From the NCBI RefSeq assembly GCF_001592265.1, contig NZ_BCWP01000029.1:1-42696 (forward strand): 42,696 bases of DNA. Reading direction: 5' to 3'. The position numbers and the translations under genes are program-made. The stretch comes from Curvibacter delicatus NBRC 14919. GTDB taxonomy: Bacteria; Pseudomonadota; Gammaproteobacteria; Burkholderiales; Burkholderiaceae_C. The first letter of the stretch is position 1. Each line of letters opens with the position of its first letter. Below are positions 11,814-42,447 of the stretch, one piece after another. Under the pieces are notes generated by a model, which saw nothing but the letters and a program-made list of their open reading frames with translations, was not told the origin of the DNA and did no database searches.

Positions 11814-11872
11814 TTCCTTTGCGTCGCACGCATGACAGCCAGCGCGTGGGTTGCACCGCTACAGTGGTTGAC

Positions 11873-12328: not shown

Positions 12329-12334
12329 GCGGGC

Positions 12335-25567: not shown

Positions 25568-25576
25568 GACCTTGCC

Positions 25577-25624
25577 ATGTACGCCCTGATCGACGGCAAC
25601 AACTTCTATGTTACACGGATGTGA
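25577..25624 (+). pseudogene. umuC: umuC, 5' stump only
   Basis: The first 12 codons read MYALIDGNNFYV, the conserved start of UmuC-type Y-family polymerases in this group. UmuC would then read SCERVF or similar, but here the frame becomes TRM and stops. From 25613 on the sequence is foreign: it abuts the 3' remnant of an AAA ATPase gene on the other strand. The remainder of umuC is not in the window. The locus was therefore interrupted by insertion of an island or by a deletion. Confidence 0.8.
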
Positions 25625-25723
25625 TTAGATTATTCGATGGATAGTGGCCAGGCTGCCCACGAAGGACTCCTTGGCTCCAACGGCTTCATTAGATAGAAGA
25701 GCCTCAAGATTCCGCACCTCTAG
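25625..25723 (-). pseudogene. AAA_13-type ATPase, 3' piece separated by transposon insertion
   Basis: The 33 codons before the stop begin LEVRNLEALLSNEAVGA, which resembles the coiled-coil segment of AAA_13 ATPases after the zinc-hook region. Joined at the flanking CTAG to the 5' piece (38741-40126), the frame is continuous: GCC-CTA-GAG-GTG. The stop comes early, before any Walker B motif, so the 3' end of the gene was already lost, probably at the junction with umuC. Assignment rests on the frame and motif match, not on a search. Confidence 0.65.
25720..25723. repeat. Left CTAG target-site copy of the 13-kb transposon
   Basis: CTAG fits the YTAR target preference of IS5-subgroup elements. 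The same four bases follow the right end at 38740-38743. Removing one copy restores the ATPase reading frame. Confidence 0.65.
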
Positions 25724-26883
25724 GGAAGGTCTGAACAACTCCGCCCCATTGCGCGACAATGCCTCACCGTGATCGGGGTGAGTGCGATGCAGCTGTCGTT
25801 CGGTGATGCCGAGGGTCTGGGGAGCCGCAAGCGCACGCGGCGCGAGGTGTTTTTGGCGGAGATGGAGCAGGTGGTGCCGTGGCAGGCGCTGCTGGGTCTG
25901 ATCGAGCCGCACTACCCGAAGATGGGCCGTCCCGGTCGCCAGCCCTATCCGTTGGCGACGATGCTGCGCATCCACTTCCTGCAGCAGTGGTATGCGCTCA
26001 GCGACCCGGCGATGGAAGAAGCCTTGTACGACACGCCGGTGATGCGCCGCTTCGCGCAGTTGGGCGGGCTTGCCGACATCCCGGACGAGACGACGATCCT
26101 CAACTTCCGCCGGCTGTTGGAGACGCACGGGCTGGCCGAGAAGCTCTTCGAGCAGGTCAACGCCCATCTTCAGCGCAAGGGCCTGAGCCTGCGCAGTGGC
26201 ACGATCGTGGATGCCACGATCATCAGTGCGCCGAGCTCGACCAAGAACAAGGCGGGCGAGCGCGATCCGGCGATGCACCAGACCAAGAAGGGCAACCAGT
26301 GGTTCTTCGGGATGAAGGCGCACATCGGCGTGGATGACGCGTCCGGTCTGGTGCACCACGTGGAATGCACGGCGGCGAACGTGGCCGACGTGACGCAGGT
26401 GTACAAGCTGCTGCACGGCCGGGAAGACACGGTGTGCGGCGACAGCGGCTACACGGGTGCCGAGAAGCGCGAGGAGCTGCAGGACGTGGACGCCGGATTC
26501 CTGATCGCGGAGAAGCCGTCGAAGCTGCGTGCGATGAAGAACGAGCGCGAGCGGCGCTACGCCGAGCGGTGGGAGCGCTACAAGGCCAGTCTGCGGGCGA
26601 AGGTGGAGCACCCGTTCCGGGTGATCAAGCGCCAGTTCGGCTACACGAAGGTGCGCTACCGCGGCCTGGCGAAGAACGCGGCGCAGGTGCTGACGCTGTT
26701 CGCGCTGTCGAACCTGTGGATGGCGCGCCGGCGTTTGTTGCCGACGACGGGAGCAGTGCGTCCGTAAGGCGGGGAAACCCGCCAAAAACCGCCCTGCACG
26801 GGCGAAATCCGGCTCGAAAGCGACGCCAGGCCGGCGCCACGATGCCGCAATCCGGGCGGCAGAGCGGGTTGTTCAGACCTTCC
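25724..26883 (+). mobile_element. IS5-family insertion sequence, left copy
   Basis: A 1,160-bp element with perfect 16-bp terminal inverted repeats (GGAAGGTCTGAACAAC at 25724-25739 and its complement at 26868-26883). It contains one transposase gene. The flanks are CTAG on the left and CTAA on the right. Both fit YTAR but they are not identical, so this is not a simple single insertion at its present place. Confidence 0.92.
25787..26767 (+). CDS. IS5-family DDE transposase
   Basis: This 326-residue transposase has the IS5 layout. An N-terminal DUF772-like region (PYPLATMLRIHFLQQWYALS) leads to the DDE core: Asp142 (GTIVDATIISAPSSTKN), Asp219 (CGDSGYTGAEK) and Glu274 (VEHPFRVIKRQFGYTKVRYRG in part). 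The block MHQTKKGNQWFFGMKAHIGV is typical of the subgroup. ATG 25787 follows a GGGGTGAG ribosome site; GTG 25769 is an alternative. The gene appears intact. Confidence 0.93.
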   Translation: MQLSFGDAEGLGSRKRTRREVFLAEMEQVVPWQALLGLIEPHYPKMGRPGRQPYPLATMLRIHFLQQWYALSDPAMEEALYDTPVMRRFAQLGGLADIPDETTILNFRRLLETHGLAEKLFEQVNAHLQRKGLSLRSGTIVDATIISAPSSTKNKAGERDPAMHQTKKGNQWFFGMKAHIGVDDASGLVHHVECTAANVADVTQVYKLLHGREDTVCGDSGYTGAEKREELQDVDAGFLIAEKPSKLRAMKNERERRYAERWERYKASLRAKVEHPFRVIKRQFGYTKVRYRGLAKNAAQVLTLFALSNLWMARRRLLPTTGAVRP

Positions 26884-27140
26884 CTAAAGCGGAGGTCGCC
26901 AAGGCGGAAGCCGAGCTGATCGTGCTCAACAATCGGCGCAGCGACATCGAGCAGGCCAATGCCCGCAAAGCCGCGCAGGCCGAACGGGAACTGGCCGATG
27001 CCCTGGCGCAGGCGCGTGAGGAACTGGCGCAGATCACCGGCACGGCGACCGATGCCGACCGGCAGGCGGCCATTGCCCGCAGCTACCGCGATCTGCGCTC
27101 GCGCCTCGCAGCGGAAATGGCGTGCTGTCGGTGCACCTGA
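26884..27140 (+). pseudogene. Coiled-coil gene fragment cut by the left IS
   Basis: An open frame runs out of the IS end as KAEVAKAEAELIVLNN, followed by about 50 Ala-, Arg- and Glu-rich residues of coiled-coil character. It ends at a TGA after CCRCT. In another frame the next 110 bp stay open with HLNGVLAIQMNAQDTIRGGG, so a frameshift near 27120 is possible. I do not recognise the family. Its 5' end is missing at the IS, so it is a remnant. Confidence 0.45.
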
Positions 27141-27273
27141 ACGGCGTGCTCGCCATTCAGATGAACGCGCAGGACACCATCCGGGGTGGCGGCCCGCTGC
27201 TCACCGCCTTCATCGGCGCGATACCATCCACCCCGGACTCACTGCCTGATTGGCTACAAGTTCCATACTCAGG

Positions 27274-27414
27274 TCAGAACTGCCGCCAGCGTTCGATCAG
27301 GACCTTCGCCTCGGCGCGGCTGCGGAACCACTCTCGGTTGAGCAGCTCGTCCCGCAGCTTGCCGTTAAAGCTCTCGACGAATCCGTTCTGCCAAGGGCTG
27401 CCAGGCGCGACGAG
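27274..27414 (-). pseudogene. IS3-family transposase C-terminal fragment
   Basis: The minus strand encodes [20 protein letters not shown], then [24 protein letters not shown] and a stop. This is the last catalytic part of IS3 OrfB integrases, with the third acidic residue in NGFVESF. It lacks the N-terminal two thirds and stops before the usual RPHSAL end, so it is dead. Confidence 0.8.
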
Positions 27415-27530
27415 GCCCGGGCTGATGTGTTCGGTTACCTCGAGCGGTTCCACAACCCGAGAATGCGTCGTAGAGTTGCCCGGCGTGACCGGGAGTTTCA
27501 GGCCTTAATCAAACCGTCCTGGAAACGGGG
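27405..27530 (+). pseudogene. Second IS3-type transposase fragment, opposite strand
   Basis: The plus strand reads [20 protein letters not shown], then [18 protein letters not shown], the C-terminal tail of another IS3-type OrfB. It meets the minus-strand fragment with a short overlap near 27410, so two IS3 remnants are fused in opposite orientation. The frame has no start and runs on without homology. Between 27530 and 27724 I see no gene. Confidence 0.65.
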
Positions 27531-27724
27531 TAGAACCCTTGGGGCGAACCAGCCCAAGTGCCTTTGGTCTGTGCGCTTTCGCAGAGGCAACGGCCCCGAT
27601 CGCTGTTGAACCGACCGGGCTGACGGCTCCCGATCACGGATCAGCGTGAACGCTACGAAGAGTTTGAGAGAACTCGGGGGCGTGATCATGCGCCGGGGCC
27701 CGGCGCCATGGAGCGGCTTTGCCG

Positions 27725-29055
27725 TTATGTACCGAGGTGGCCTTGCTCTTGGCGATCCACGTCCTGACCGAGATCATGACTCGGACATGCGCTTTGCAAC
27801 CACCTGCGCGCGAAAACCTCGGCCGGCTCCGGACGGGCGAAGTAATACCCCTGTGCTTCGTCGCAACCCAATGCCAGCAAGTGTTCCGCCTGCGCTGCCT
27901 CTTCCACACCTTCGGCCAGGGTCTTGAGGCCGAGGCTCTTCGCCATGGCAACGATGGCGGACACAATGGCGAGATCGTTGCGATCGGTCAGCATGTCCCG
28001 CACGAACGAGATGTCGATCTTCAGTTTATGAACGGGAAATCGCTTGAGGTAAGCCAGTGAGGAATACCCGGTGCCGAAATCATCGATGGACAGCGCAAAC
28101 CCGGCCGAGGTCAGGGCGCGCGTGACCTCCACGGCACGTTCCGGGTCGCGCATCATGCCCGACTCGGTCAGCTCGAGCTCGATTGCAGAAGACGCTGCAC
28201 CGGATTCGCGAGCGATCCTAAGACACCGGTCAACGAAATCGTCGTCCTCAAATTGTTTCGCGGCCACATTCACCGCGACCCTTCCGGGCAGCGGACACCC
28301 TCGTTCCTGCCAATGCCGCACCTGGCGGCATGCCCCGGCGAGCGCCCATTCGCCCAATGTACCGATCAATCCCCGTTCTTCCGCGATCGGGATGAATTCG
28401 GCTGGGGAAACCATGCCCCAATCCGCATCATGCCATCTCGACAGTGCCTCGGCGCCTACGATTTTGCCGCTGGGCAAATGCACCTGGGGATGATAGTGGA
28501 GTTGCAACCGTCCGGCGGCAAGCGCGGTTTCCAGGCGATGGACGATTTCCAGCTTCCTCGCCAAATCCGTACCCATCTCCGAACGGTAGAAGCGATAGCC
28601 CCCGCCGCTGGCCTTGGCCCGGTACATGGCGATGTCGGCGTGTTTGAGCAGCTCCTCGGCCGAGCGTCCATCTTCTGGATAGAAAGCAATGCCGATACTT
28701 GCCTTGAGCGCAAAAAACCGTCCATTGATTGCGAGAGGTTCGGCGAGCGCTTTTTTTGGATACGTTCGGCGATGAGGGCCGCGGCCGACTGGTTGGCCCC
28801 CATTGCAATCACGACGAACTCGTCGCCTGCCAGGCGCGCCAGGGTTTCCTCCTCTCGCAATGCGGCCTGAAACCGCCGGGCGATCTCGATGAGCGCCCGG
28901 TCGCCGATGGCGTGCCCCTGGGTGTCGTTGATCTCCTTGAAGCGGTCGAGATCCAAAAACAGAAGCGCCACCCGCTGTCCGTGGCGCTGGGCGCTCGCCA
29001 GCGCTTGCTTGAGCCGATCCAGGAACAACGCCCGGTTGGGCAGGCCCTGCAACGT
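27725..29055 (-). pseudogene. GGDEF-EAL protein gene, 5'-truncated and frameshifted
   Basis: A c-di-GMP enzyme gene is split between two frames. The upstream frame has the GGDEF domain (GLPNRALFLDRLKQAL, FLDLDRFKEINDTQGHAIGD, RLAGDEFVVIA, with the site as AGDEF). The downstream frame continues ASIGIAFYPEDG and has a full EAL domain (GAEALSRWHD, IELELTESGMM, SIDDFGTGYSSLAYLKRFP, KTLAEGVE). The shift is at a run of seven A (T at 28751-28757), where A-AAA-AAG would allow a -1 slip back into frame. The 5' end, with any sensor domain, is cut off at about 29050, where a DUF302 fragment begins on the other strand. The EAL part alone could still be active. Confidence 0.8.
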
Positions 29056-29209
29056 GGTGGTGCGGGAGGACACGCCGGGGCTGAGCACCGTCGCGTTCAT
29101 CGATCCGCAAACCATGGTCGCGTTGAGCGGCAACCCACAGGTGCGCGAGGTGGCCGATGACGCCGCGGCGCGGCTGGCTCGCGTGCGCGAACGCCTGGCG
29201 GCGGGATGA
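29045..29209 (+). pseudogene. DUF302-family protein, C-terminal fragment
   Basis: The plus strand encodes PCNVVVREDTPGLSTVAFID, then PQTMVALSGNPQVREVADDA and a helical end before TGA. This matches the C-terminus of DUF302 proteins, small periplasmic proteins often found near sulfur-oxidation and redox genes. The N-terminal half is missing: the reading frame begins at the breakpoint with the GGDEF-EAL gene. It converges with sorB. Confidence 0.65.
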
Positions 29210-29225
29210 GGAACGCGGACCGGCG

Positions 29226-29894
29226 TCAGCGGCTCAGCACCCACTTCGCCAGCGTATCCAGCTCGGCCGGCGTCAGTCCCGGGTACGGCGGCATCGGCAC
29301 CGTGCCCCACTTGCCGGCGCCGCCCGCGCGGATGTTGGCGGCCACCTGCTGCAGCGCATCGGCCTTGCCGGCGTATTTCGCCGCGACCTCCTTGAACGCA
29401 GGGCCCACGACCTTCTGCTCGACGGCGTGACAAGCGGTGCAATTGTTGGCCTTCAGCAGCGCTTCGGGCTGCAGCGACGCAGCGGTAGTGGGGGTTGCCG
29501 GTGCAGCGGTCTTCGGGGGCGGCGCGGCGGCCACCATGGCGGGTGCCGGTGTGGCAGCGGTGGTCTGCTCGGCGCCGTAGGTCTTGACGAGGTAGTCGAC
29601 CATTGCCGGAATGTCCTCGTCGGAGAAGGGCGCACCGAACGGGTGTTTCATCTTCTTCACCGTGGCTTCCCAGTAGCTGCGCGGGGAGGTGGACGGCTGG
29701 TACTGCACATATTGCGCCGAATGACAGGTCATGCAGTTCTGCTGCACCAGCCGGTAGCCCGGCAGCTCGCTGGGCTTGTATGCGGCCGTCTCAGCGGGCA
29801 GCGTGATGTCCAGCGCGAAAGCGGCAGGCAGCGCGGCCGTCGCCGATATGATCCCCACGAGAACGCGCAGGCAGTAACGTTGTTTTGTGCTCAT
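29226..29894 (-). CDS. sorB: Diheme cytochrome c subunit of sulfite dehydrogenase (SorB-like, fused)
   Basis: This 222-residue periplasmic cytochrome has a signal peptide (1-28) and two CXXCH sites, at 54-58 (NCMTCHSAQ) and 152-156 (NCTACHAVE). The first domain resembles SorB, with SELPGYRLVQQNCMTCHSAQ and YWEATVKKMKHPFGAPFSDE. A Pro/Ala-rich linker (110-142) leads to a second class I cytochrome domain with Met201 as likely ligand (GTVPMPPYPG). Known SorB has one heme, so this is a fused form that may pass electrons further towards the oxidase. AGGAGA precedes the ATG, 11 nt after sorA. Confidence 0.88.
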   Translation of the reverse strand: MSTKQRYCLRVLVGIISATAALPAAFALDITLPAETAAYKPSELPGYRLVQQNCMTCHSAQYVQYQPSTSPRSYWEATVKKMKHPFGAPFSDEDIPAMVDYLVKTYGAEQTTAATPAPAMVAAAPPPKTAAPATPTTAASLQPEALLKANNCTACHAVEQKVVGPAFKEVAAKYAGKADALQQVAANIRAGGAGKWGTVPMPPYPGLTPAELDTLAKWVLSR

Positions 29895-29905
29895 GCCTGT
29901 TCTCC

Positions 29906-31153
29906 TCATGCCGCGACGACGCGCGTGGTCTCGACGACGTTGCGCATGTAGCCGGCCGGGTTCCACAACGCGGACAGCGGCTGGCTTTGACCGATGCGGT
30001 TGACCGCGCGCACCTTCAGTTCATGAGCGCCTCGCTTGCTCGGCTTGAAGGCCACACTCCACTCGCGGAAGGAATACTTGCCCAAATCCTTGCCGAGCCG
30101 GGCTTCCGTCCAGGTGTGTCCACCATCGGCGGAGAAGGCGACTTCGGTGATGCCGAAGCCGCCGTCGAAGGCAATGCCGCGCACCACCGTCTCGCGCCCA
30201 ACGCGCACCTTGTCGCCGTCGCGCAGGCTGGTGATGAACGAGCGCACGTTGAACCGGTTGATAGGCACGGTCTTGGCTGGCGCCTTGCCCGGCTCCACGC
30301 AGGCGCAGGCGTTGTCGGGAATGCGGTAGGCCGTACTCATCCAGAACCCGTCGAACGCCTTGTCCAGCACTTGAATGTCGGACAGGTGCTTGACCCAGTA
30401 GGTGCCGTAATGGCCGGGAACGATCAGCCGGACCGGATAGCCGTTGAGCATCGGCAGGTCCTCGCCATTCATCGCCCAGGCCAGCATCACCTCGCCGTCG
30501 AGCGCGTGGTCGACCGCGAGCGCCTTGACGAAGTCCGGGCTCTCGCCTTGCAGCGTCGGATGGTCCAGGCCATTGAAGCTCACCTGCACGGCACCGGCCT
30601 GCACGCCGGCCTTCTCCAACACTTTCTTCAGCGGCACCCCTGTCCAGCGTGCGTTGCCCATCGCGCCATTGGACAGCTGGCCGCCGTTGGCGCGCGGCGT
30701 GAAATGCCCGCGGCTGTTGCCGGAGCACTGGTTGACCGCCACCAGCTCCACCGGGTCGGCCAGACGCTTCAGGTCGTCCAGCGACAGCTCCAGCGGCGTG
30801 TTGACCTTGCCGCCCACGCGCAGCCGATAGCTTTGCGGATCGATCGAGGTGGGAATGCCGCTCCAGTGGTAGCGCACGAAGAACGCGTCGTTGGGCGTGA
30901 TGACGCCTTCGTTGAAGACCGAAAACGGCGTCTCCAGCTGCGGCGGCCGGCTGGTCAGCAGGATCAGCGGGCGCTTCTGCGGAAAGGCCACCAACTCGCG
31001 CTCGCCATTGTCGAACGGCAACACGACGCGACCCGCAGTCGCCGCAAGCGCCTCGGCGGTCGGACCCATCAGGCCGGCACCGGCGCCGATGGCGCCCAAG
31101 GTCTTCAGCACACGGCGGCGCGCAGGCCAGGGGGGGGTGTCGTCACGCTCCAT
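29906..31153 (-). CDS. sorA: Sulfite dehydrogenase molybdopterin subunit SorA
   Basis: This 415-residue sulfite-oxidase-family enzyme oxidises sulfite to sulfate in the periplasm. It has a Tat signal (ARRRVLKTLGAIGAGAGL, twin Arg at 12-13). The Mo-cofactor domain follows, with the dithiolene-pocket Cys143 (ELVAVNQCSGNSRGHFTPR) and WTGVPLKKVLEKAG. The Ig-like dimerisation domain near the end has GGHTWTEARLGKDLGKYSFR. The ATG has AAGGAGA upstream. Electrons go to the cytochrome encoded next. It is downstream of an ECF sigma pair in what looks like one operon. Confidence 0.93.
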   Translation of the reverse strand: MERDDTPPWPARRRVLKTLGAIGAGAGLMGPTAEALAATAGRVVLPFDNGERELVAFPQKRPLILLTSRPPQLETPFSVFNEGVITPNDAFFVRYHWSGIPTSIDPQSYRLRVGGKVNTPLELSLDDLKRLADPVELVAVNQCSGNSRGHFTPRANGGQLSNGAMGNARWTGVPLKKVLEKAGVQAGAVQVSFNGLDHPTLQGESPDFVKALAVDHALDGEVMLAWAMNGEDLPMLNGYPVRLIVPGHYGTYWVKHLSDIQVLDKAFDGFWMSTAYRIPDNACACVEPGKAPAKTVPINRFNVRSFITSLRDGDKVRVGRETVVRGIAFDGGFGITEVAFSADGGHTWTEARLGKDLGKYSFREWSVAFKPSKRGAHELKVRAVNRIGQSQPLSALWNPAGYMRNVVETTRVVAA

Positions 31154-31190
31154 GTTTGTCTCCTTCTTCGAGTAGATGGGAAACCGCGCC

Positions 31191-32579
31191 CTATCGGGCG
31201 CTCACCAGAACTGCATTCGACGCCTGCGCCGCCGCATCACCTTCGACCACGAGAATCTGCGCGACGGAAGGCGTTTTCGACGACATGGTGGTCACCGCGT
31301 CTCGCAGCGGGCCGATCACCGTGCCGTTGGCCGCCCCGGCGGGGTTGGTCTTGAAACTCGCGATCGGCGAACGCTGGCTGCTCACATACACGTTGTACAC
31401 CGTTTGCGGCTTGAGCTTGAAGAGGAAGACTTCCAGAGCGTCCACCAGCCCCAGGTTGCGCGCCACGACGAAGCCGCGGGCCTCTCCCTGCGTGGCTTTG
31501 AGCGTAATGTTGACTGGCTCGTCGTTGACGCGGGGCACGAGGTGGGCTGTGCCCGTGCCGCTGGGCACGGCGTTCGACACATAGACCAGCGCCTGCGGGG
31601 CCTGCCCCACGGGTGCGCGAGCGATCACCCGGTCGGTGGCGGTGTCGATCACGTCCACCGCGTCACCGTTTTCCAGCCCCACGTACATGCGCGTGCCATC
31701 GTCGGATGGCCAGATGCCGTGCGGTAGCGCGCCCACCGGGATGGTGGCCAGCAGCTTGGGCGTGGCGTCGGTGGTGTAGACCTTCACCACGTTCTCGCCG
31801 CCGATGGTCACGTAGGCCAGCGTGCCGCGTGCGGTCTTGGCGAACCCGAGGTGGTTGGTGATGAATCCGGTCTCGATCACGCCCTTGACCTGAAGCGTAT
31901 CGGTGTCGATGCGGGTCACCTTGCCCACGTCCTTGTGCGTCATCCACACTTCCTTGAAGTCCGGGGTTAACTGCAGGAAGGGCGAGAACGGGCTGACCAC
32001 CGGGATGCGCTTGATCACCTTGCGCGTGGGCACGTCGATCACGTCCACCTCCGGCGTGAAGCTGTGCACCACGAAGGCGATGTTCTTCTGCGGATGGAAC
32101 AGCACCATGCCCGGCCCGGGCGCGGTTTCGATGCGGCCGACTTCCTTGAAGGTCGCGGCATCGATCACGGACACGTAGTTCTCGCCGCGCACGACCGCCC
32201 ACACGTGCTTGCCGTCCGGCGTGAAGAACGCCTCGTGCGGCGAGCGGCCGATGTAGGCGATGCCTTTGACCTGGTTGGTGGCGGTGTCGATGAAGGCGAC
32301 CGAATTGGAGCCGTTGGAAATCGCGACCAGGGTCTTGTGGTCAGGCGAGAAGCCCAGGCCGTGCACGTTGAGCTCACCCTTGTACAACGGCGACAGCACC
32401 TCCGGCCGCACGTTGCCCAGCCGGATCTGGCCCAGCAGCGTGTTGGACGAAGGATCGATCACCGACACCGTGTTGGTGTTCTGGTCGGCGGTGTAGACGC
32501 GATCGGCGGGGGCCGGCGCGGCCAGCGCGATGCCGCTGCACATCACCAGTTGCAGGGCGAGGAAGAGTCGTTTCATCAT
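31191..32579 (-). CDS. YVTN beta-propeller periplasmic protein
   Basis: This 462-residue protein has a signal peptide (1-20, ending GIALA). About seven propeller repeats of the YVTN/YncE type follow: VYTADQNTNTVSVIDPSSNT, LVAISNGSNSVAFIDTATNQ, VWAVVRGENYVSVIDAATFK, MYVGLENGDAVDVIDTATDR. The last 130 residues form an extra C-terminal domain of unknown type. The family binds ligands or nucleic acid or is of unknown role; next to SorAB it may serve as a redox or scaffold protein. Its ATG overlaps the DUF305 stop, so the two are coupled. The frame stays open far upstream, but that is only high-GC shadow. Confidence 0.88.
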   Translation of the reverse strand: MMKRLFLALQLVMCSGIALAAPAPADRVYTADQNTNTVSVIDPSSNTLLGQIRLGNVRPEVLSPLYKGELNVHGLGFSPDHKTLVAISNGSNSVAFIDTATNQVKGIAYIGRSPHEAFFTPDGKHVWAVVRGENYVSVIDAATFKEVGRIETAPGPGMVLFHPQKNIAFVVHSFTPEVDVIDVPTRKVIKRIPVVSPFSPFLQLTPDFKEVWMTHKDVGKVTRIDTDTLQVKGVIETGFITNHLGFAKTARGTLAYVTIGGENVVKVYTTDATPKLLATIPVGALPHGIWPSDDGTRMYVGLENGDAVDVIDTATDRVIARAPVGQAPQALVYVSNAVPSGTGTAHLVPRVNDEPVNITLKATQGEARGFVVARNLGLVDALEVFLFKLKPQTVYNVYVSSQRSPIASFKTNPAGAANGTVIGPLRDAVTTMSSKTPSVAQILVVEGDAAAQASNAVLVSAR

Positions 32580-33064
32580 CGGGTTCCTTGTGTCGTTTCG
32601 GTTGAGTGGGATGGGTGCGCCGCTGCGGCCTTGGCGGCGGCATCGTCGGCATGCCGTGCAAGCCAGGCCTGCATCAGTCGAATCTCGTTGCGCTGCTCGA
32701 CAATGATGGACAGTGCAAGGTTGCGCAGTTCCGGGTCCTTGGTGGACAGCAGCACAGCCTTGGCCATGTCGATGGCGCCTTGATGGTGCGGGATCATCAT
32801 CACGACGAAGTCGTGGTCGGGGTTGCCGTTCATCGGGGCGGTACGCATGCCGTGGTCCATGACCGCCATCGCGTCGTCCATCAACTGGGCGAAGGACTTG
32901 GCGGTGCTGGCCACGAAGCTCGGCGGGGGCGGTGTCTGCGCTTCGGCCGCTGGGGAATGAGCATGCTGCGCCAGGGCCGGCAGGCTCGCCAGCATGGCCA
33001 GCGCCGCCATCGCCCACTGGCGGGCGGGTCTCGGTGATGTCATCTTGAAAGCGAGAGGCTGCAT
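32576..33064 (-). CDS. DUF305 periplasmic protein
   Basis: This 162-residue protein has a signal peptide (MAALAMLASLPALA) and a DUF305 four-helix domain. The Met- and His-rich signature reads AMAVMDHGMRTAPMNGNPDH, then DFVVMMIPHHQGAIDMAKAV. Members such as CopM bind copper or silver through these residues. It starts 3 nt after the anti-sigma gene; ATG 33043 is an alternative start. A periplasmic metal role beside the Mo-heme enzyme is inferred. Confidence 0.87.
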   Translation of the reverse strand: MQPLAFKMTSPRPARQWAMAALAMLASLPALAQHAHSPAAEAQTPPPPSFVASTAKSFAQLMDDAMAVMDHGMRTAPMNGNPDHDFVVMMIPHHQGAIDMAKAVLLSTKDPELRNLALSIIVEQRNEIRLMQAWLARHADDAAAKAAAAHPSHSTETTQGTR

Positions 33065-33067
33065 GGA

Positions 33068-33910
33068 TCAGCTCGGTTGAAGTTGGGCGTAGACGGCCGT
33101 GGCGATGCGCGCCAGCTCGCCTTTGTCGATGCCGGCCGATAAGGCGTAACCGAACTTGCCGTCGATCCAATAGAACACATTGACCGGCCCCTCCTGCGCG
33201 AAGCGGAAGCCGGTATCCTGATTGGATGCTTGCTCGTTCGTGACGTACAGCGTCAGGCGCTGCCCCGTGGTGTCGTGGTACATGAACTGCGCCACCGGGC
33301 CGCTCGATCCGGGCAACAGGCGCCCGCCGATCAGTTCGTAGCCCAGTGCACCCAGCTTCGGGGGGCGGATCTTCGCGCCCAAGCGCTTGGACAGCCAGGC
33401 GACCAACTGGTCTTCCTGGTCGGCGCCGATCTCCACCGGTCGCCGCACGTCGGGGCTGTAGACCACGTGCGCGATGGCCGCTTGCCGCGGCAGGCTGCCG
33501 GCCGCCGCGTTGACGATGACCGCCGGCCCACGGGACGACTGCGCGAGCATCTCCGCGGTTTGCCATGCGCCGCGCCCCACCCAGCCGGCGCCTGCGCCGA
33601 AGAACACCAACGCAAAGCCTGCCGCCACGCGTTCGAGCGACCAGCGCGGCAGGCGTGCACCCGCGTGGCGTGCAGCGGCGCGCGTACGCGGCGCCCGGGC
33701 CGCGTGCAGCAAGGTGTCGGGGACGGCTTCGTCCAGCACCGCGCCGTACAGCGCCTTGATCGCCTGTTTGTCTTGCCGGTAGGCCTGCAAGCGCTGCGCC
33801 TCCTGCGGGCGCTCGGCCAGGTAGGTTTCGATCTCGGCGCGCCGGGATTCGGGCAACAGGCCGTCGACAAAGGCATGCAGATCCGCTTCAGTGATGGGCA
33901 ACGGGTTCAT
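33068..33910 (-). CDS. Anti-sigma factor (transmembrane, zinc-finger-like N-terminus)
   Basis: This 280-residue protein has the N-terminal anti-sigma domain (ITEADLHAFVDGLLPESRR, YLAERPQEAQRLQAYRQDKQ), one helix near residues 92-112 (GFALVFFGAGAGWVGRG) and a periplasmic domain that could sense a signal. The Cys of classic ZAS domains are not evident. Its ATG overlaps the sigma stop (ATGA), the standard pairing. It would hold the ECF sigma at the membrane until the inducing signal, probably sulfite or a related stress, is met. Confidence 0.9.
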   Translation of the reverse strand: MNPLPITEADLHAFVDGLLPESRRAEIETYLAERPQEAQRLQAYRQDKQAIKALYGAVLDEAVPDTLLHAARAPRTRAAARHAGARLPRWSLERVAAGFALVFFGAGAGWVGRGAWQTAEMLAQSSRGPAVIVNAAAGSLPRQAAIAHVVYSPDVRRPVEIGADQEDQLVAWLSKRLGAKIRPPKLGALGYELIGGRLLPGSSGPVAQFMYHDTTGQRLTLYVTNEQASNQDTGFRFAQEGPVNVFYWIDGKFGYALSAGIDKGELARIATAVYAQLQPS

Positions 33911-34434
33911 TTCACCACCTTCAATGCCGTGGGTTGGATGCGTCCCTCCATCACGCCGCGCAGGCGCGCGCGGCCACGCGACAGCCGCGACATCACGGTG
34001 CCCAGCGGCACACCGAGCGTGCGCGCGATCTCGTCGTAGCTCATGTCCTCCAGCGCCACCAGCAGCAGCACCTCGCGCTGCTCGGGCGGGAGCTGCCGCA
34101 GTGCAATTTCGAGATCTCTCATTTCGAGGCCGTCGGTCTGTGAAGCCCTGACCGGCGACGCCAGCGCTTCTTCGTCCAGCGGCACGGCTACCACGGCGGG
34201 CCGGCGGCGCTGGTCCACATGCAGGTTGTGCAGAATGCTGAACAGCCAAGCGCGCATGTCGCCGTCCGGCCGCCAGTTGTCGATGCGGGCCCAGGCCCGC
34301 TCCAGAGCGTCCTGCACCAGATCGTCGGCAGCGGCGTGGTCGCCGACCAGCGCGCGAGCGTAGCGCCGCAGGCGCGGCAGGGCCGCCACCATCAGCGCGC
34401 CCGCCTCGGTCAACGCCACGTCCTGGGCCTTCAT
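33907..34434 (-). CDS. ECF sigma factor
   Basis: This 175-residue sigma-70-family protein has region 2 (LVGDHAAADDLVQDALERAW, GDMRAWLFSILHNLHVDQRR) and region 4 (LPPEQREVLLLVALEDMSYD, EIARTLGVPLGTVMSRLSRG) and no regions 1 or 3. It is co-transcribed with its anti-sigma factor and the sulfite dehydrogenase genes. A candidate ECF promoter lies before the first gene of the operon, which implies self-activation. A comparable sigma/anti-sigma pair is known beside the sorT sulfite dehydrogenase genes of Sinorhizobium meliloti. Confidence 0.93.
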   Translation of the reverse strand: MKAQDVALTEAGALMVAALPRLRRYARALVGDHAAADDLVQDALERAWARIDNWRPDGDMRAWLFSILHNLHVDQRRRPAVVAVPLDEEALASPVRASQTDGLEMRDLEIALRQLPPEQREVLLLVALEDMSYDEIARTLGVPLGTVMSRLSRGRARLRGVMEGRIQPTALKVVK

Positions 34435-34473
34435 CGCGCACCGACGCCGTTCGCTGCCGTCGCCCGTGGCTGC

Positions 34474-34914
34474 TCAGTAACTGGCCACTGACAGTTTCGG
34501 ATCGATCTGCCAGGTTTCGTTGACGATCTTGGCGTCGCGATAGGTCAGAACGTAGCGCACCTTGATCGGCTGCTTGCCCTCGAACTGCACGTTGGCCGTC
34601 ACGGTGGCGCCCTTGGGGTTGGCCGATTCCTCCACCTTGTCGATCGACACCTTCAGAGTCCCTTGCGACTTGGTGAACTTCTCCCAGACCCCGCGGATCG
34701 CGTCAGCGCCCGCGTAGCTGCCATCCAGCGGCCCCCCAACCCAGGTGAGTTGGGCGTTGTCGGCGTAGCCCCGCATCAGCACGGCCAGATCGCCCGAGCC
34801 GATGGCCTGGAAGTGCGTGCGGGCGTCGTCGGCGGGTCCGGCGAACGCCGTGCCGCTGAACAGGGTCGCGAGAGCGAAAGCGGTGGCGGTGGCGGTGGCG
34901 GTGAGTCGTTTCAT
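34474..34914 (-). CDS. Periplasmic SnoaL/DUF4440-like (NTF2-fold) protein
   Basis: This 146-residue protein has a signal peptide (1-25, ending GTAFA) and an NTF2-like domain: GPADDARTHFQAIGSGDLAV, LMRGYADNAQLTWVGGPLDG, then VNETWQIDPK near the end. Such proteins are frequent in ECF-sigma operons and may report or bind a small ligand. It is the first gene after the ECF-type promoter and 39 bp before the sigma gene. Confidence 0.82.
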   Translation of the reverse strand: MKRLTATATATAFALATLFSGTAFAGPADDARTHFQAIGSGDLAVLMRGYADNAQLTWVGGPLDGSYAGADAIRGVWEKFTKSQGTLKVSIDKVEESANPKGATVTANVQFEGKQPIKVRYVLTYRDAKIVNETWQIDPKLSVASY

Positions 34915-34964
34915 GATCGGTAGTCCTTAGTACGTGGGTGGAAGAAATGAGGTTGACATTGAGG

Positions 34965-34993
34965 TATACGGGAGCGTCGGCCGGTTTATTCCC
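34965..34993 (-). promoter_or_regulatory. Candidate ECF-sigma promoter of the sulfite operon
   Basis: On the minus strand GGGAATAAA is followed after 15 nt by CGTATA, fitting ECF -35 (GGAAT) and -10 (CGT) elements. The predicted start is near 34957, giving a leader of about 40 nt before the NTF2-like gene. AAGGA precedes that ATG. Confidence 0.6.
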
Positions 34994-35031
34994 GCCTGGG
35001 CGCAAAACTCATCGCCTCATCGCGGCATGCT

Positions 35032-36078
35032 TCACCCCAGCCAGTGGCTGACGGCCCGGTTCACACCATAGCCGCCGACCATCAGAAAACCGAACAGCGT
35101 GGCCGCCAGCAGCAAGGGCTTAAGGCCCGCTTGGCGGATGGCTCCCACGTGGGTACGCAGCCCGAGCGCGGCCATCGCCATGGCCAGCAGCACGGTGTCG
35201 AGCTGCACCAGGGCCGCGACCCATTGCGGCGGCAGCCACCCCAGCGAATTCACGCCGGCGGCGGCGATGAACACCAGCGCGAACCAGGGAATGGTGATGC
35301 GGGCCGCGCCACCCTGTCCGTCGGCCCGGTCGGCCCTTGACAGCGCCAGCAGGAACGGCGCAAGCATCATCACGCGCAGCATCTTGACGATGACGGCCGT
35401 GGCGGCGGCCGGCTCGCTGACGCTGCGCCCGGCGGCCACCACCTGCGCCACCTCGTGGATCGTCGAGCCCGCGTACACGCCATAGGCCTGCTCGGACAGG
35501 TGCAGGTACGGGTACAGCAGCGGGTAGGCGAACATCGCCAGCGTGCCGAACACGACCACCGTGGCCACGGCCACCGACACCTTGTGCGCCTGCGCGCGCA
35601 CCACCGGCTCGGCGGCCATCACGGCGGCGGCGCCGCAGATCGCGCTGCCCGCGCCGATCAGCATCGAGGTCTGCCGGTCCAGCTTGAACACGCGCGTGCC
35701 CAGCTGCAGCGCGAGAACAAAGGTCAGCGCCACCATCAGCGCATCGATCACCACGCCGGCCCAGCCGATGGCGCCGATCTGCTGGAAGGTGATGCGAAAA
35801 CCGTACAGCACGATGCCCGCGCGCAGCAGCCGGTTCTTGGAGAAATCGACCCCGGCAGCCGTGTGCGCGGCGATGGCCGGAAAGAACGTGTTGCCGGCCA
35901 CGATGCCCAGCACGATGGCCAGCGTCAGCGCCGACAGGCCCCAGCGCCCCGCCCAAGGCGTCTGCGCCGCCACCATGGCGGCGGCGGCAAGTAGCCCCGC
36001 CAGCGCCAGGCCTTGCCACCAGGCACGCGTCCTCCAGGTCGGAGGCGCAGAGGTCGTGGCGGACAACGAGGTGGACAT
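35032..36078 (-). CDS. yeiH: YeiH/UPF0324-family putative sulfate/sulfite exporter
   Basis: This 348-residue membrane protein has about ten helices. UPF0324 landmarks are LTLAIVLGIVAGNTF, VDFSKNRLLRAGIVLYGFRI, GAGSAICGAAAVMAAEPVVR and YAGSTIHEVAQVVAAG. The family is annotated as a sulfate exporter and in enterobacteria is controlled by the sulfite-sensing LysR regulator YeiE. AAGGAG lies 7 nt before the ATG. Here the YeiE-like gene is divergent, 131 bp away. Export of sulfite or sulfate produced by SorAB would be a coherent role. Confidence 0.88.
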   Translation of the reverse strand: MSTSLSATTSAPPTWRTRAWWQGLALAGLLAAAAMVAAQTPWAGRWGLSALTLAIVLGIVAGNTFFPAIAAHTAAGVDFSKNRLLRAGIVLYGFRITFQQIGAIGWAGVVIDALMVALTFVLALQLGTRVFKLDRQTSMLIGAGSAICGAAAVMAAEPVVRAQAHKVSVAVATVVVFGTLAMFAYPLLYPYLHLSEQAYGVYAGSTIHEVAQVVAAGRSVSEPAAATAVIVKMLRVMMLAPFLLALSRADRADGQGGAARITIPWFALVFIAAAGVNSLGWLPPQWVAALVQLDTVLLAMAMAALGLRTHVGAIRQAGLKPLLLAATLFGFLMVGGYGVNRAVSHWLG

Positions 36079-36197
36079 GGTCGGACTCCTTCACGGAAAA
36101 CGTTGGCTGGCGCTTAGAGACCGCTATGAGCGCCGCGATGCACGTCAGCTTCCTGCATCTGGTACCATGAGTCCAATACATTCTTTTCAAGAAAACG

Positions 36198-36210
36198 TAA
36201 CTTTAAGTTA
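36198..36210. promoter_or_regulatory. Palindrome at the yeiE-like start
   Basis: TAACTT-T-AAGTTA is a perfect inverted repeat that overlaps the first base of the LysR gene's ATG. A second repeat, TTCTT-ttc-AAGAA, lies just upstream (36181-36193). Both are candidates for LysR autoregulation and for control of the divergent exporter. Only symmetry and place support this. Confidence 0.4.
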
Positions 36211-37124
36211 TGCGACTGAATCTTCACCTGCTGCGCGTGTTCTTCACTGTGGCTGAGCTGCGAAGCTTCTCGCGCGCGGCCGAGGCCCTGTTCATCAGCC
36301 AGCCCGCTGTCTCCAAAGCCGTGCGCGAGCTGGAATGCCAGATCGGCCTACCCTTGCTCGAACGTGGCGCGGGCGGCCCCAAGAGCGCCCGGGGCGTGCA
36401 ACTGACGCCGGACGGTGCGGCGGTGTTCGAGCATGCACGGGGCATCTTTGCGCTGGAGCGGGCCGCGATCGAAGACGTGCAGGCGCGCGTGGGGCTGCAG
36501 CGCGGTCGCCTGCGGGTGGGGGCCAGCACCACCGTGGGTGCCTACTGGCTGCCCCAACTGCTGGCGGACTTTGTGCATCGCCATCCAGCCGTCGATGTGC
36601 AAGTGGTTCAGGGCAACACGCAGATGGTCTGCGAGGCCCTGCTCGACTGCCGCATCGACATCGGTCTGGTCGAGGGCGATGTGCACGACCCGCGTCTTGC
36701 AGCGCACACGTGGCGCGAGGAGCCGCTGTGCGTCGTCGCTGGCGTGCACTCGCCGCTGGCGCGCAGCCGACGCCTCACCGCCGCCACACTGAGCAGCGAG
36801 ATCTGGCTGCTGCGCGAGCCGGGCTCCGGCACCCGCGACGTGGCCGACCGGCTGCTGCACGAACTCGCGATCCGGCCACAGCGATGCATAGAGATCGGCA
36901 GCAACGAAGGCATCGCCCGCGCCGTCGCGGCCGGCCTGGGGGTGGCACTGCTGCCGATGCGCGTGGTGCGCGAGCTGCTGGCGCTGCGTGAAGTGGCTGC
37001 CCTCAAGCTATCAGGCGCACCCAAGCTGGTCCGGCTCCTGTGGCGCGTGGAACTGAAGGGCCGTCCGCCGTCGCCGCTGGTGCTGGCCTGGCGTGAGGCG
37101 CTGGCGCGCCCGCTCGCGCACTGA
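36210..37124 (+). CDS. LysR-family regulator (YeiE/CysB-like)
   Basis: This 304-residue protein has a LysR HTH at 1-60 (FTVAELRSFSRAAEALFISQ, PAVSKAVRELECQIGLPLLE) and a CysB-type effector domain: RLRVGASTTVGAYWLPQLLA, VVQGNTQMVCEALLDCRIDI, LVEGDVHDP, LREPGSGTRDV. The ASTTVGxYxLP block is shared with CbbR, CysB and YeiE types. Divergence from yeiH strongly suggests a YeiE-like sulfite-responsive activator. The specific ligand residues were not checked. Confidence 0.88.
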   Translation: MRLNLHLLRVFFTVAELRSFSRAAEALFISQPAVSKAVRELECQIGLPLLERGAGGPKSARGVQLTPDGAAVFEHARGIFALERAAIEDVQARVGLQRGRLRVGASTTVGAYWLPQLLADFVHRHPAVDVQVVQGNTQMVCEALLDCRIDIGLVEGDVHDPRLAAHTWREEPLCVVAGVHSPLARSRRLTAATLSSEIWLLREPGSGTRDVADRLLHELAIRPQRCIEIGSNEGIARAVAAGLGVALLPMRVVRELLALREVAALKLSGAPKLVRLLWRVELKGRPPSPLVLAWREALARPLAH

Positions 37125-37169
37125 CCGGGCGCGAGCGGGCCGCTCTGCTGTCGTTGCCTTCAGGAGTAG

Positions 37170-37361
37170 TCGTCTGAGCTGCGCGAGTTACTGGCACCAG
37201 ATCGCATTCACAAGCTGACCGAGCAGGAGTTCGTAGATGCCGTTTCCCGGGTGCACGCGATCCGAGACCAGGCCGTCAGGCAGGGATACGAGCACTTGGT
37301 CTTGCCTGACCGACCGCAGGCCGGCGACGACAAGGTGGAAAAGTTCGGCGAGTGGCTCTGA
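37170..37361 (+). pseudogene. Unrecognised 63-residue C-terminal fragment
   Basis: An open frame directly after a TAG encodes SSELRELLAPDRIHKLTEQE, then a charged helical stretch ending KFGEWL before TGA. It has no start codon near its beginning and good codon quality, so it looks like the 3' end of a truncated gene. I do not recognise the family. The rest of the 37125-37528 spacer shows nothing else I can support. Confidence 0.35.
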
Positions 37362-37528
37362 CGGCAGCGATTCGCGGAACGCGATCCGCAGCGACGACTG
37401 CCGAAGTGGCTTATTGCTTCAATCGCCGATTCGATCTTAAAACCACCCTCCCGCGCCTGATCATCGCAGCGGCGCGTACGTGCGCTTGCCCGTTGCAGAT
37501 GATCAGGTGGGCTGAGGGACATTGCTAA

Positions 37529-38739
37529 GGAAGGTCTGCAAAACCTTCCTGCCAGACTGCCGGGATGGGACAATAGCGACATGAAGCAGATGAGTCTGGA
37601 GGCGCCGATGTATACGGGCTTTGAGCTGCGCGCCAAGCGCACCCGCAAGCGTGCGTTTTTGGAGCAGATGGACCGTGTGGTGCCGTGGGCAGAGTTGGTC
37701 GCACTCATCGAGCCGTATGCGCCGAAGGCGGGTCCCAAGGGTGGGCGGCCACCCTTTGCGGTAGAGAAGCTGCTGAGGATTCATTTTTTGCAGCAGTGGT
37801 TTGGTCTGTCGGACCCGGCGGTGGAGGAAGCCTTGTACGACACGCCGCTGCTGGCGAGCTTTGTTGGTCTGGACCTGGGGGTGGATGTCGTGCCGGATGA
37901 GAGCACCATCCTGCGCTTTCGCCACCTGCTGGAGCAACACGGCCTGAGCCAGCGTATCCTCGAGACGGTCAATCGCATCCTGACCGAGCGTGGCCTCATG
38001 CTCAAGAGCGGCACCATCGTGGATGCCACGCTCATTGCTGCTCCCAGCTCGACCAAGAACGCCCGCCGTGAGCGCGACCCTGAGATGCACCAGACGAAGA
38101 AGGGCAACCAGTGGTACTTCGGCATGAAAGCGCACGTTGGGGTCGACGCCGAGACAGGGCTGGTACACACGGTGGTGGCCACCGCTGCCAACGTCTCGGA
38201 TGTGACGCAGGCGCATCGGCTCTTGCACGGGCAAGAGACCGACGTCTTTGCCGATGCGGGCTATCAGGGAGTGGACAAGCGAGCGGAAAACCAGGGCAAG
38301 CAAGTCGCTTGGCACGTGGCCATGCGGCCGGGCAAGCGCCGGGCATTGGACAAGCGCACTTTTCTTGGCCAGGTGATGGATGCCTTGGAACGCACCAAGG
38401 CGCGCATTCGTGCCAAGGGTGAGCATCCGTTTCGGGTACTCAAATGCCAGTTTGGCTACCGCAAGACGCCCTATCGAGGCTTGGCCAAGAACGGCGCGCA
38501 GCTCAACGTCCTGTTTGCGCTGGTCAATCTGTGGCTGGCGCGCAAAGCCTTGCTGGCTGCGACGGGATAAGTGCGCCCGCAGTGGGCTCACTGGGGCCGG
38601 ATGAGGCTGCAGAGGGCCCACGAAGGGGCTTGCTGGAGCCCAAGAACCGTTCAGCATCTGTTTCGATCCCATCCTACGAAACGATATTGACCCTGAACTC
38701 GTCGCCACGAACGAGTGGGCGGGGTAGTGCAGAGGTTCC
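37529..38739 (+). mobile_element. IS5-family insertion sequence, right copy
   Basis: A 1,211-bp element distinct from the left IS. The left end reads GGAAGGTCTGCAAAACC and the right end, in complement, GGAACCTCTGCACTACC; 12 of 17 positions agree. The left end contains its own hairpin (GGAAGGT-n7-ACCTTCC). Flanks are CTAA on the left and CTAG on the right. The right boundary is fixed by the ATPase frame joining at CTAG and not only by the repeat. Confidence 0.8.
37581..38570 (+). CDS. IS5-family DDE transposase
   Basis: This 329-residue transposase is related to but clearly different from the left one. DDE residues are Asp148 (IVDATLIAAPSSTKN), Asp225 (FADAGYQGVDKRAEN) and Glu281 (GEHPFRVLKCQFGYRKTPYR). 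Shared family blocks are LLRIHFLQQWFGLSDPAVEE and MHQTKKGNQWYFGMKAHVGV. The gene appears intact. Confidence 0.93.
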   Translation: MKQMSLEAPMYTGFELRAKRTRKRAFLEQMDRVVPWAELVALIEPYAPKAGPKGGRPPFAVEKLLRIHFLQQWFGLSDPAVEEALYDTPLLASFVGLDLGVDVVPDESTILRFRHLLEQHGLSQRILETVNRILTERGLMLKSGTIVDATLIAAPSSTKNARRERDPEMHQTKKGNQWYFGMKAHVGVDAETGLVHTVVATAANVSDVTQAHRLLHGQETDVFADAGYQGVDKRAENQGKQVAWHVAMRPGKRRALDKRTFLGQVMDALERTKARIRAKGEHPFRVLKCQFGYRKTPYRGLAKNGAQLNVLFALVNLWLARKALLAATG

Positions 38740-38743
38740 CTAG
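38740..38743. repeat. Right CTAG target-site copy of the 13-kb transposon
   Basis: The four bases after the right IS end equal those before the left IS at 25720-25723. On the minus strand they supply the CTA codon and following G at which the ATPase frame breaks. Confidence 0.65.
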
Positions 38744-40126
38744 GGCAAGCTCATCAATCGCCCTTTTGTCGGTTACTGCGGTTGCCTCCAAATCTTTGCA
38801 CTGCTTCTCATTGCCTGCATAGTCAAACTCTTGAATTTCTGCCGCAGCAAAATGAAGCTCAAGAGACTTCTTGGCTTTGGAGGTTTCCACACTGAAGTTG
38901 TCCGTCTTATTGTTGTGCTTCTTCACTAAATCAACAATGGACGACAAGATCACATTGAAGTTCGTCACATCATCCTCAAACACATCCGCAATCTGAATGT
39001 CGGTCTTTAAGGGGTCGGTGATTTTTGCCTTCAGGGCTTCCCGCCAGCCTTCAATTTGCTCATTGATTTTTTCAGCAGCTTCCTTGTATTGCCCTTCTAG
39101 CTTCGTCGCCTCAGTGGCGAACTCTTTATAAAAGCCTGTTGATGCAGGCAGGCTATTAGCGGGGGCGCCTTGGGATTCAATCCACGTCGCCGCATTGTTC
39201 AATCTCGTTTGGAAGTCTGTGAATTCCTTGCTGAAATGAGCCGCCAAGACCTCCGCACGAGCTTTGGTGAACGGTTCCCCGCAGAATTCGCAAGATTCTG
39301 ATTTGTAATGTTCATGGATTTCCATGCCCTTCTGCACCCAATCACGGATATCAGGATTATCTGTAAGCCGCTCTATCGCCTGATTAATCGCTGTCGTTCC
39401 AATCAGGTCGCGGATGCGACCTGCGGCCTTCTTGAAGTAGCCTTCTTCAATTGCTGTTGAGACGAAGGTAATGCTTGGCAGATGGTCCGGCTTTGCTGCA
39501 TTTGTTAGTTCAATGACTTTCTCGTCAGAAAGCACGGACTCTTTCTTTGCAACCGATTCACCATGGCCCTCAATGAACTTCAAGAGCTTGCGGCGGTCAT
39601 AGTTTAGATAATAGCTATCGCTAGTATCAATCGCCTGAAGACCCGTCTTCATCTTTTTGGCCGCATTGGTCAGAAATTTATCCTGTGCTTCCGTCTTTGT
39701 ACGGATTTCCGTCAGCTTTGCCGCGTGTGCTTTTTGCTTTTCCCCAAGTTCACCCTTCTTCCTCTCCAAAGCCTGAAGATCATCAATTTTCTCTTTGGCA
39801 ATGAGGAGAATGCTTTTTACCGACTCATCCCAATTAATGTTCTCGTGGATGAATCGTTGATTGAAAACATGGATGTTCAGTTGTGAATCCGCCAGGTTTG
39901 CTTCAGTGAGTGACGTCCCATCGTCTAGTACGATGGAGAACTGCGCCTCAGCAAAGCGAGGAATCAGTGAACGACGCTCAAGGCAAGAGAAGACATTAGA
40001 AAGGGTTGACTTTCCAGTGCCATTCCAACCATAGATAAGGTTGTACCTGCCAAACTGCTGAATGCCAGACCCGTTGTAGTCGGTGAAGATGCCGAACTGC
40101 CGAAGGCGATTGATGCGAAGAATCAC
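38741..40126 (-). pseudogene. AAA_13-type ATPase (RloC/PrrC-like architecture), 5' part cut by transposon
   Basis: 462 codons remain of an SMC/Rad50-like ATPase. The Walker A motif is GWNGTGKST at about residues 33-41, after LRQFGIFTDYNGSGIQQFG. Long coiled-coil runs follow. CEFCGEPF (Cys279 and Cys282) looks like a zinc hook. RloC-type anticodon nucleases and several AAA_13 phage-defence proteins share this form. The GTG start has GGGGGAGC upstream. At 38743 the frame enters the right IS and ends after 29 foreign codons, before any Walker B or nuclease domain. The continuing piece is at 25625-25723. Base composition is visibly more AT-rich than the chromosome genes, which suggests acquisition. 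Confidence 0.8.
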
Positions 40127-40536
40127 TTTTAGAGCTCCCCCAACCGTGTGCCAGTCAAGCACAGGCATCACCTAGTTGTGATCTCTATATGTAAGCGAAT
40201 GAAATGATTCTGTGACGACCGCATGGCTATCGTTAACCCTTAGAAGGACATTCTTTGATTCACCCCGTGGCGAGGGCTGACCCGCGCTGCTGATCTTGGT
40301 CATTGTGGCCTTTGCGCGGCCAGCCGTTGGCTGCCGCTCATGTCCTGCGTTGAACGACAGCTATAGGGCGACGCGTTCGACGATTTGAACGCCGGCAACC
40401 GCTGCAAAGCCGTCGCCTGCCTTGGACTGCCAACGGTCGGCAACGGGTCGAACAGCGACTCCCGGCCAGGAGTGGTCTTTCAGGCTCGCGGGTCGGTTGA
40501 CAGTTTCAGACTGGAAGCGGTCAAGTGGGCTGCCCG
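40127..40536. other. 410-bp region without a recognised gene
   Basis: I find no convincing coding frame between the ATPase start and the small ParS-type gene. There is a GCCAGCC/GGCTG stem near 40319-40334 and otherwise no repeat or terminator. Short frames here lack ribosome sites and known motifs. It may hold the ATPase promoter. Confidence 0.4.
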
Positions 40537-40779
40537 TTACGTAAATGCACCCGCCTGCGCCCTTGCCAGCAACGTGGTTAAGACTTCTAGCCCATCCTCC
40601 GAGCTCAAAAGCTCCACCGGCCGTTGACCACCAAGCGCCGGCAGCGGCCTGTCAAGCCACTTAAGCAGCCATTCCCTGGCATCAAAGCCTGTCGCATCAC
40701 CTGACTCCTCAACCATCTTTTGCACCTGAGTGACGAGGGCATCAATGGCCATTTCCTTGCGTGTTAGCTTGTCAGACAT
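40537..40779 (-). CDS. Small ParS/MbcA-type (DUF2384) antitoxin-domain protein
   Basis: This 80-residue protein consists of a short helical N-terminus (KLTRKEMAIDALVTQVQKMV) and a DUF2384 domain: EWLLKWLDRPLPALGGQRPV, then ELLSSEDGLEVLTTLLARAQ. In known systems this domain binds a RES-type NAD-degrading toxin, usually with an Xre HTH in front. Here no HTH and no RES gene are present. It follows the metallophosphoesterase gene by 59 bp on the same strand, which is therefore the natural partner candidate. Confidence 0.75.
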   Translation of the reverse strand: MSDKLTRKEMAIDALVTQVQKMVEESGDATGFDAREWLLKWLDRPLPALGGQRPVELLSSEDGLEVLTTLLARAQAGAFT

Positions 40780-40838
40780 GATTCAAAACTCCGCGGTGAT
40801 GGGCTATACGTAAATGAAACCGAATGGGGAGAGACGCG

Positions 40839-41651: not shown

Positions 41652-41748
41652 GAGGTGACGTTGCCTTCCCGGCGATCTGAGAGAGAAATCAATTCTGAGA
41701 TTGAATTCAGGCGTTGATTGAACTGTAGCGAATGGCTACCCTTACGGC

Positions 41749-41763
41749 AATGTCCCCGACATT
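41749..41763. promoter_or_regulatory. Perfect inverted repeat in the divergent promoter region
   Basis: AATGTC-CCC-GACATT is a perfect 6-bp inverted repeat 31 bp before the HigA-ParS start and about 100 bp before the metallophosphoesterase start. Xre-type antitoxins usually bind such repeats and repress their own operon, so this is a likely operator. Confidence 0.55.
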
Positions 41764-41794
41764 CACTGGTTGATCTTCGCTGCACCTTCCATCT

Positions 41795-42442: not shown

Positions 42443-42447
42443 GGCGG

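Follow-up and report, generated by a model that had tools for sequence, protein, structure and literature searches.

Hybrid composite transposons, whose outer ends are two different ISs, are exemplified by Tn2114 of Acinetobacter, which is reported to carry ISAba21 on the left and ISAba14 on the right, both of the IS3 family (PMC8438517, citing Bonnin 2012). In the classical composite transposon Tn6097 of Paracoccus, as described in PMC3281130, two identical copies of ISPfe2 bracket a cargo and a target repeat is present; the locus analyzed here likewise has two ISs that bracket a cargo and a target repeat, but its two transposases are only 59% identical. The window, 42,696 nucleotides in length, is the entire contig C29 of the 3.76-Mb draft genome of Curvibacter delicatus NBRC 14919 (108 contigs). 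It contains a 13,016-bp unit at 25724-38739 that lies between two copies of CTAG inside an AAA_13 ATPase gene. We consider this segment to be probably a hybrid composite transposon that formed when one IS (IS-B) landed near the right end of the cargo and took over the role of the right-hand copy of another (IS-A), and that then moved into the ATPase gene. The features of the unit are as follows.

25720..25723, no strand: CTAG, left copy of the target duplication (from the sequence)
25724..26883, plus strand: IS-A, an IS5-family element of 1160 bp with the end GGAAGGTCTGAACAAC on both sides (from the sequence)
25769..26767, plus strand: transposase of IS-A, 332 aa (DDE_Tnp_1, DUF772; NF033581, 356.9 bits)
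26884..37528, no strand: cargo with CTAA on both inner sides (26884-26887 and 37525-37528), 99.79% identical in MAG KLAP74 over 10,788 alignment columns (counted from 26743, including 141 bp of IS-A)
37529..38739, plus strand: IS-B, an IS5-family element of 1211 bp (from the sequence)
37581..38570, plus strand: transposase of IS-B, 329 aa, sharing 59% identity with the IS-A transposase over 311 positions (NF033581, 355.4 bits)
38740..38743, no strand: CTAG, right copy of the target duplication (from the sequence)

Both transposases exceed the NF033581 cut-off of 140 bits, as expected of IS5-type transposases, and both look intact. IS-A and IS-B lie on the plus strand, in direct orientation, with 10,645 bp of cargo between them. 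As in a composite transposon, a target duplication surrounds the whole unit within a host gene that is otherwise continuous, and the cargo lies between two apparently intact, directly oriented ISs whose outer ends are predicted to be usable. The two ISs are neither the same nor nearly so (66% identity in the DNA that aligns and 59% between transposases), and therefore we label the unit a 'hybrid' composite. An earlier note on this DNA had proposed the borders, the length of 13,016 bp, the CTAG repeats, and the use of two different IS5-family elements as ends, all of which are borne out by the sequence.

The left border of IS-A was confirmed by Castellaniella defragrans, in which the TTAA site is uninterrupted, and the right border of IS-B was fixed by plasmid pRK1-4 of Cupriavidus basilensis, in which the right 988 bp of IS-B recur with 100% identity and end at CTAA. 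IS5-family elements target a 4-bp YTAR sequence, and this pattern is present at the window flanks (CTAG/CTAG on the outside and CTAA/CTAA on the inside), to the left of IS-A in KLAP74 (TTAA), and to the right of IS-B in pRK1-4 (CTAA). Given this YTAR preference, the two CTAG copies could match by chance and are weak evidence on their own; what carries weight is that the gene continues exactly from one side of the unit to the other. Searches of the window with Rfam at gathering thresholds and with a tRNA scan gave no matches.

Misassembly of the draft contig is conceivable, given that the genome is in 108 contigs and that a neighboring gene (umuC) is divided over two of them, but we consider it highly improbable. 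Each IS occurs once in the genome, where its only other match is its 66% relative in the unit (40 of 108 candidates scored for IS-A and 40 of 57 for IS-B), which leaves no identical repeats that an assembler could have confused. Moreover, the two parts of the ATPase gene fit together with single-base precision, and the junction between IS-A and the cargo recurs independently in a second locus (L040).

To either side of the unit are the two pieces of the ATPase gene, which we searched separately and never joined, taking the N piece as 477 aa (38741-40171, minus strand) and the C piece as 25625-25723 (minus strand).

38741..40171, minus strand: AAA_13 ATPase, N piece, 477 codons up to the IS-B border (homologue alignment; PADLOC candidate-defence model PDC-S06, 274.8 bits)
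25667..25723, minus strand: AAA_13 ATPase, C piece, 19 homologous codons (homologue alignment)

The two pieces meet in register in four of the five homologues tested (L020, L057, L058, and L059), and in these four the CTA codon that is duplicated by the 4-bp repeat lands on a single residue of the homologue, whichever piece is aligned. Identity of the N piece to these four is 78%, 73%, 72%, and 44%, their open frames being 802, 854, 821, and 767 codons long, respectively. For the 19-aa C peptide, 0 of 2000 shuffles reached the observed score in each of the four in-register homologues. The fifth homologue (L008, 28% identity) is uninformative, because 204 of 2000 shuffles reached the C-piece score, which is chance level.

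These comparisons bear on several proposals of the earlier note. The peptide encoded at 25625-25723 is indeed related to AAA_13 proteins, but over 19 codons only (25667-25723), and the uninterrupted homologues that the note had called for carry the join in register in four of five cases. The proposal that removal of the unit restores the frame holds insofar as the pieces are adjacent and in register in those four homologues. However, no whole gene would result, since approximately 288 C-terminal residues are missing from the ATPase even when both pieces are counted. Homology of the C piece stops after 19 codons, and the next 54 bp, which extend to a junction in umuC, are non-homologous. The open reading frame in the window, which starts at 40171 and not at the slightly short end of 40126 given previously, spans AAA_13 positions 1-441 of 713, whereas a Klebsiella homologue spans 1-713; thus the full-length domain of a working gene is absent (1-441 of 713 plus 19 codons). 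A search of the same genome, run without a positive control, gave no match to the missing C terminus. Because only 19 further homologous codons are present and about 288 residues are absent, the gene was broken by something besides the unit. The family to which the N piece is matched by the PDC-S06 models of PADLOC is a candidate defence family. Beside the ATPase, 40839-42696 holds a metallophosphoesterase gene and a HigA-like antitoxin gene, and DNA at the contig end resembles a second metallophosphoesterase by eye.

The junction at 25612/25613 lies 54 bp beyond the last homologous ATPase codon; it marks the end of the first 12 codons of umuC, which closely follow a umuD-type gene.

25577..25612, plus strand: umuC, first 12 codons, the last one shared with the insert (remainder of umuC on contig C2)

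The rest of umuC is located on contig C2 near 173400 (L007 near 1911), where it is preceded by unrelated DNA. The sequence TCTATGT is common to both umuC junctions, and by eye the edges of the insert look like imperfect inverted repeats. We infer that an older insertion into umuC is present here, its middle being unseen as its two edges fall on separate contigs, C29 and C2. The ATPase gene would already have been truncated, beside this older junction, when the unit arrived. According to PMC4542609, umuC-type genes are insertion hotspots; the integron-like elements in rulB/umuC that are described there resemble the present case in having inserted into a umuC-type gene, but they show a 3-bp GAT repeat, whereas the edges here share TCTATGT early in umuC and, with the insert divided between contigs, no integrase is visible. 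The GInt island, by comparison, is defined by a ginABCD operon at one end (PMC5385486). The edge DNA from umuC to IS-A (25568-25722) had no match in the plasmid search. Near the C2 edge is a small open reading frame that by eye was named XRE-like HTH.

The genes of the cargo are listed below.

27725..29110, minus strand: EAL protein with a partial GGDEF domain (domain search; cargo homology in Castellaniella begins at 29110)
29226..29966, minus strand: c-type cytochrome (family match)
29906..31153, minus strand: SorA sulfite dehydrogenase catalytic subunit (NF052245, 702.9 bits, cut-off 600)
31191..33566, minus strand: long open reading frame with a beta-propeller (YncE-like) region, start uncertain, overlapping the DUF305 open reading frame in another frame
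32576..33064, minus strand: DUF305 protein (family match)
33907..34434, minus strand: sigma-70 family (ECF-like) sigma factor (family match)
34474..34914, minus strand: SnoaL-like protein (family match)
35032..36078, minus strand: YeiH family putative sulfate exporter (TIGR00698, 365.6 bits)
36210..37124, plus strand: LysR-type regulator (domain match)

Judging from these protein families, the cargo would serve sulfite oxidation with sulfate export. A Comamonadaceae plasmid is annotated with a similar gene set. Three further family members (G049, G243, and G373) share 593 bp of the cargo, at 27539-28131, with 99% identity but lack the rest of it.

Near-identical copies of the cargo (99.8-99.95%; SorA, cytochrome c, YeiH, and LysR) are present in three MAGs that bear IS-A on its right. 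An exact search of genome contigs with a 21-base pattern from the right end of the cargo returned six named stretches, and in five of these six loci the CTAA site of IS-B is uninterrupted and IS-B is absent. Accordingly, IS-B at the CTAA of the cargo has the look of an insertion, and the sequence on the side where IS-B meets CTAG does not lead into the natural neighbor of the cargo. The sixth locus, in Leptothrix sp. C29, has a DDE_3 transposase gene, presumably that of an IS630-like element, at the same CTA of the cargo right end. The site at 37525-37528, CTA(A), is therefore followed by two different elements, namely IS-B in the window and the DDE_3 transposase element in Leptothrix sp. C29.

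In three of the six loci (an Aquabacterium MAG, MAG B38T1B8, and MAG KLAP74), IS-A is located approximately 170 bp to the right of the site of IS-B; in the Aquabacterium MAG and in MAG B38T1B8, the match to IS-A extends no further than the base of 26497. The site of this right-hand IS-A (TTAA) is also uninterrupted in C. defragrans DSM 12141. That a right-hand IS-A is real in relatives is also expected if an IS-A::cargo::IS-A composite entered CTAG and IS-B, inserting later at CTAA, made an adjacent deletion that took out the right IS-A together with the ~170-bp spacer and stopped exactly at the right CTAG. Foreign ends would not have to be paired, and CTAG, being itself a YTAR target, is a possible deletion end point. 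We nevertheless consider such a deletion unlikely, because it must end at one particular site when 24 YTAR sites exist in 38740-42696 alone, and its intermediate was not found.

The left part of the cargo appears to have a separate origin, in that the cargo match in both Castellaniella loci begins only at 29110, which indicates that the part to the left of 29110 was added elsewhere. Relative to KLAP74, the 10.8 kb of cargo differ by 21 substitutions and one 2-base gap, and 19 of the 21 substitutions are located in 34591-34781. At these 21 variant positions, Castellaniella sp. S9 has the KLAP74 letters at all 21, whereas C. defragrans and the Aquabacterium MAG have the window letters at 20. The tract at 34591-34781 therefore looks like a recombined one. 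The Aquabacterium MAG differs from the window by four substitutions in 8,419 bases of cargo.

KLAP74 also has the junction between IS-A and the cargo on the left, from which the window differs by the 2-base gap in an A run. Its contig of 12,117 bp carries the same 141 bases of IS-A at both ends, a length equal to k = 141 of the MEGAHIT assembler. A circle of 11,976 bp would give this result, as would a tandem or two-copy (IS-A-flanked composite) arrangement. The KLAP74 genome has no further contig that matches IS-A at E 1e-40. IS-A in KLAP74 is flanked by TTAA on the left and CTAA on the right, which would fit recombination between two IS-A copies, one at each site.

The circle-like appearance of this contig raises another scenario, wherein IS-B was already present in the CTAG of the ATPase gene and a circle of IS-A and cargo joined its left end, as translocatable units of IS26 do. 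This course would likewise yield CTAG outside and CTAA inside. However, a circle of the KLAP74 type carries the ~170-bp spacer (cargo-CTAA-165 bp-TTAA-IS-A) and would retain it, whereas the spacer is absent here and the cargo ends exactly at the CTAA of IS-B; hence IS26-like targeted insertion is disfavored and, in our estimation, very improbable. We know of no IS26-like targeting by IS5-family elements.

The replacement of the right IS-A end by IS-B is the best explanation of these observations because the gene pieces are in register (four of five homologues), the flanks are CTAG/CTAG and CTAA/CTAA, the site of IS-B is uninterrupted in five of six loci, and IS-A is present on the right in three of six. 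The sulfite-dehydrogenase cargo of several betaproteobacteria would first have lain between two IS-A copies in direct orientation, or on a circle that had a single IS-A. IS-B would then have landed in CTAA approximately 170 bp inside the right IS-A, after which its right end would have been paired with the left end of IS-A and the whole span from one to the other inserted at CTAG in the ATPase gene. The unit would have moved as a whole in one transposition event that used both ends, and the transposase of IS-B is the favored candidate for this reaction. Counted against this explanation are the lack of a second IS-A...IS-B copy, the putative nature of the cross-use of ends, the 2-base gap relative to KLAP74, and the possibility that CTAG matches by chance.

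No second IS-A...IS-B unit was recovered in a cargo search of 399 genomes of the family (37 with a match at 1e-120), by a search with the cargo end and IS-B in 399 genomes of the order, or among the six stretches with the exact cargo-end pattern in genome contigs. The earlier note's suggestion to look for the same 13-kb unit at another site was thus pursued in both sets of 399 genomes without yielding one. Among the 37 family genomes, one besides the genome of origin is ~100% identical over the cargo, and it lacks IS-B. Of 346 plasmid records with some match to the whole unit, none covers 80% among the 20 matches listed, and the cargo end had 0 matches in viral contigs.

Pairing of the left end of IS-A with the right end of IS-B is plausible at the sequence level because their terminal 16 bp agree at 12 of 16 positions, the same number as for the left and right ends of IS-B itself; the two left ends agree at 14 of 16. 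More generally, one IS5-family transposase may use the end of a 59%-identical relative, such that an incoming IS captures a composite by landing near its end, a generalization that we put forward only tentatively. A circle made up of IS-A, cargo, and IS-B would place the IS-B right end opposite the IS-A left end, with approximately 170 bp between them, and this would be a ready-made junction for insertion of the remainder of the circle. The cross-use of ends by related transposases can be tested directly with the IS-A and IS-B sequences.

The right end of the cargo also touches on the transmissible locus of stress tolerance (tLST). In C. defragrans DSM 12141 (L051 near 11622-12700, reverse complement), the cargo directly adjoins HTH and HSP20 genes that resemble those with which tLST opens on a plasmid of Pseudomonas fragi, and this locus is a possible environmental neighborhood of tLST. 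The window has the cargo end that borders tLST, but the tLST genes themselves were not found in it. IS5 elements have been reported to flank tLST (PMC8290217). A segment of 144 bp at 37228-37371 recurs with 91% identity in both plasmids that we inspected (E. coli FAM21805 and Pseudomonas fragi NMC25), where it sits upstream of the tLST heat-resistance genes, and it is matched in 87 plasmid records, mostly of Klebsiella and E. coli.

Among the open-licence papers listed, we recognized none that concerns the IS-A...IS-B unit. If our preferred reading is correct, the unit provides a readable case of a composite transposon exchanging one end, in that the earlier end, the uninterrupted site of the second IS, and the original neighbor are all kept in other bacteria. 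Annotation rules that require two identical ISs would miss such hybrid units. Tn2114, as portrayed in PMC8438517, resembles the present unit in having two different ISs of one family as its outer ends; it belongs to the IS3 family and has other cargo, whereas here the ISs are of the IS5 family and a near-identical cargo with the earlier right end is present in other bacteria. Hybrid composites were therefore already known from Tn2114, and the Curvibacter unit adds an IS5-family example whose history is unusually easy to read.
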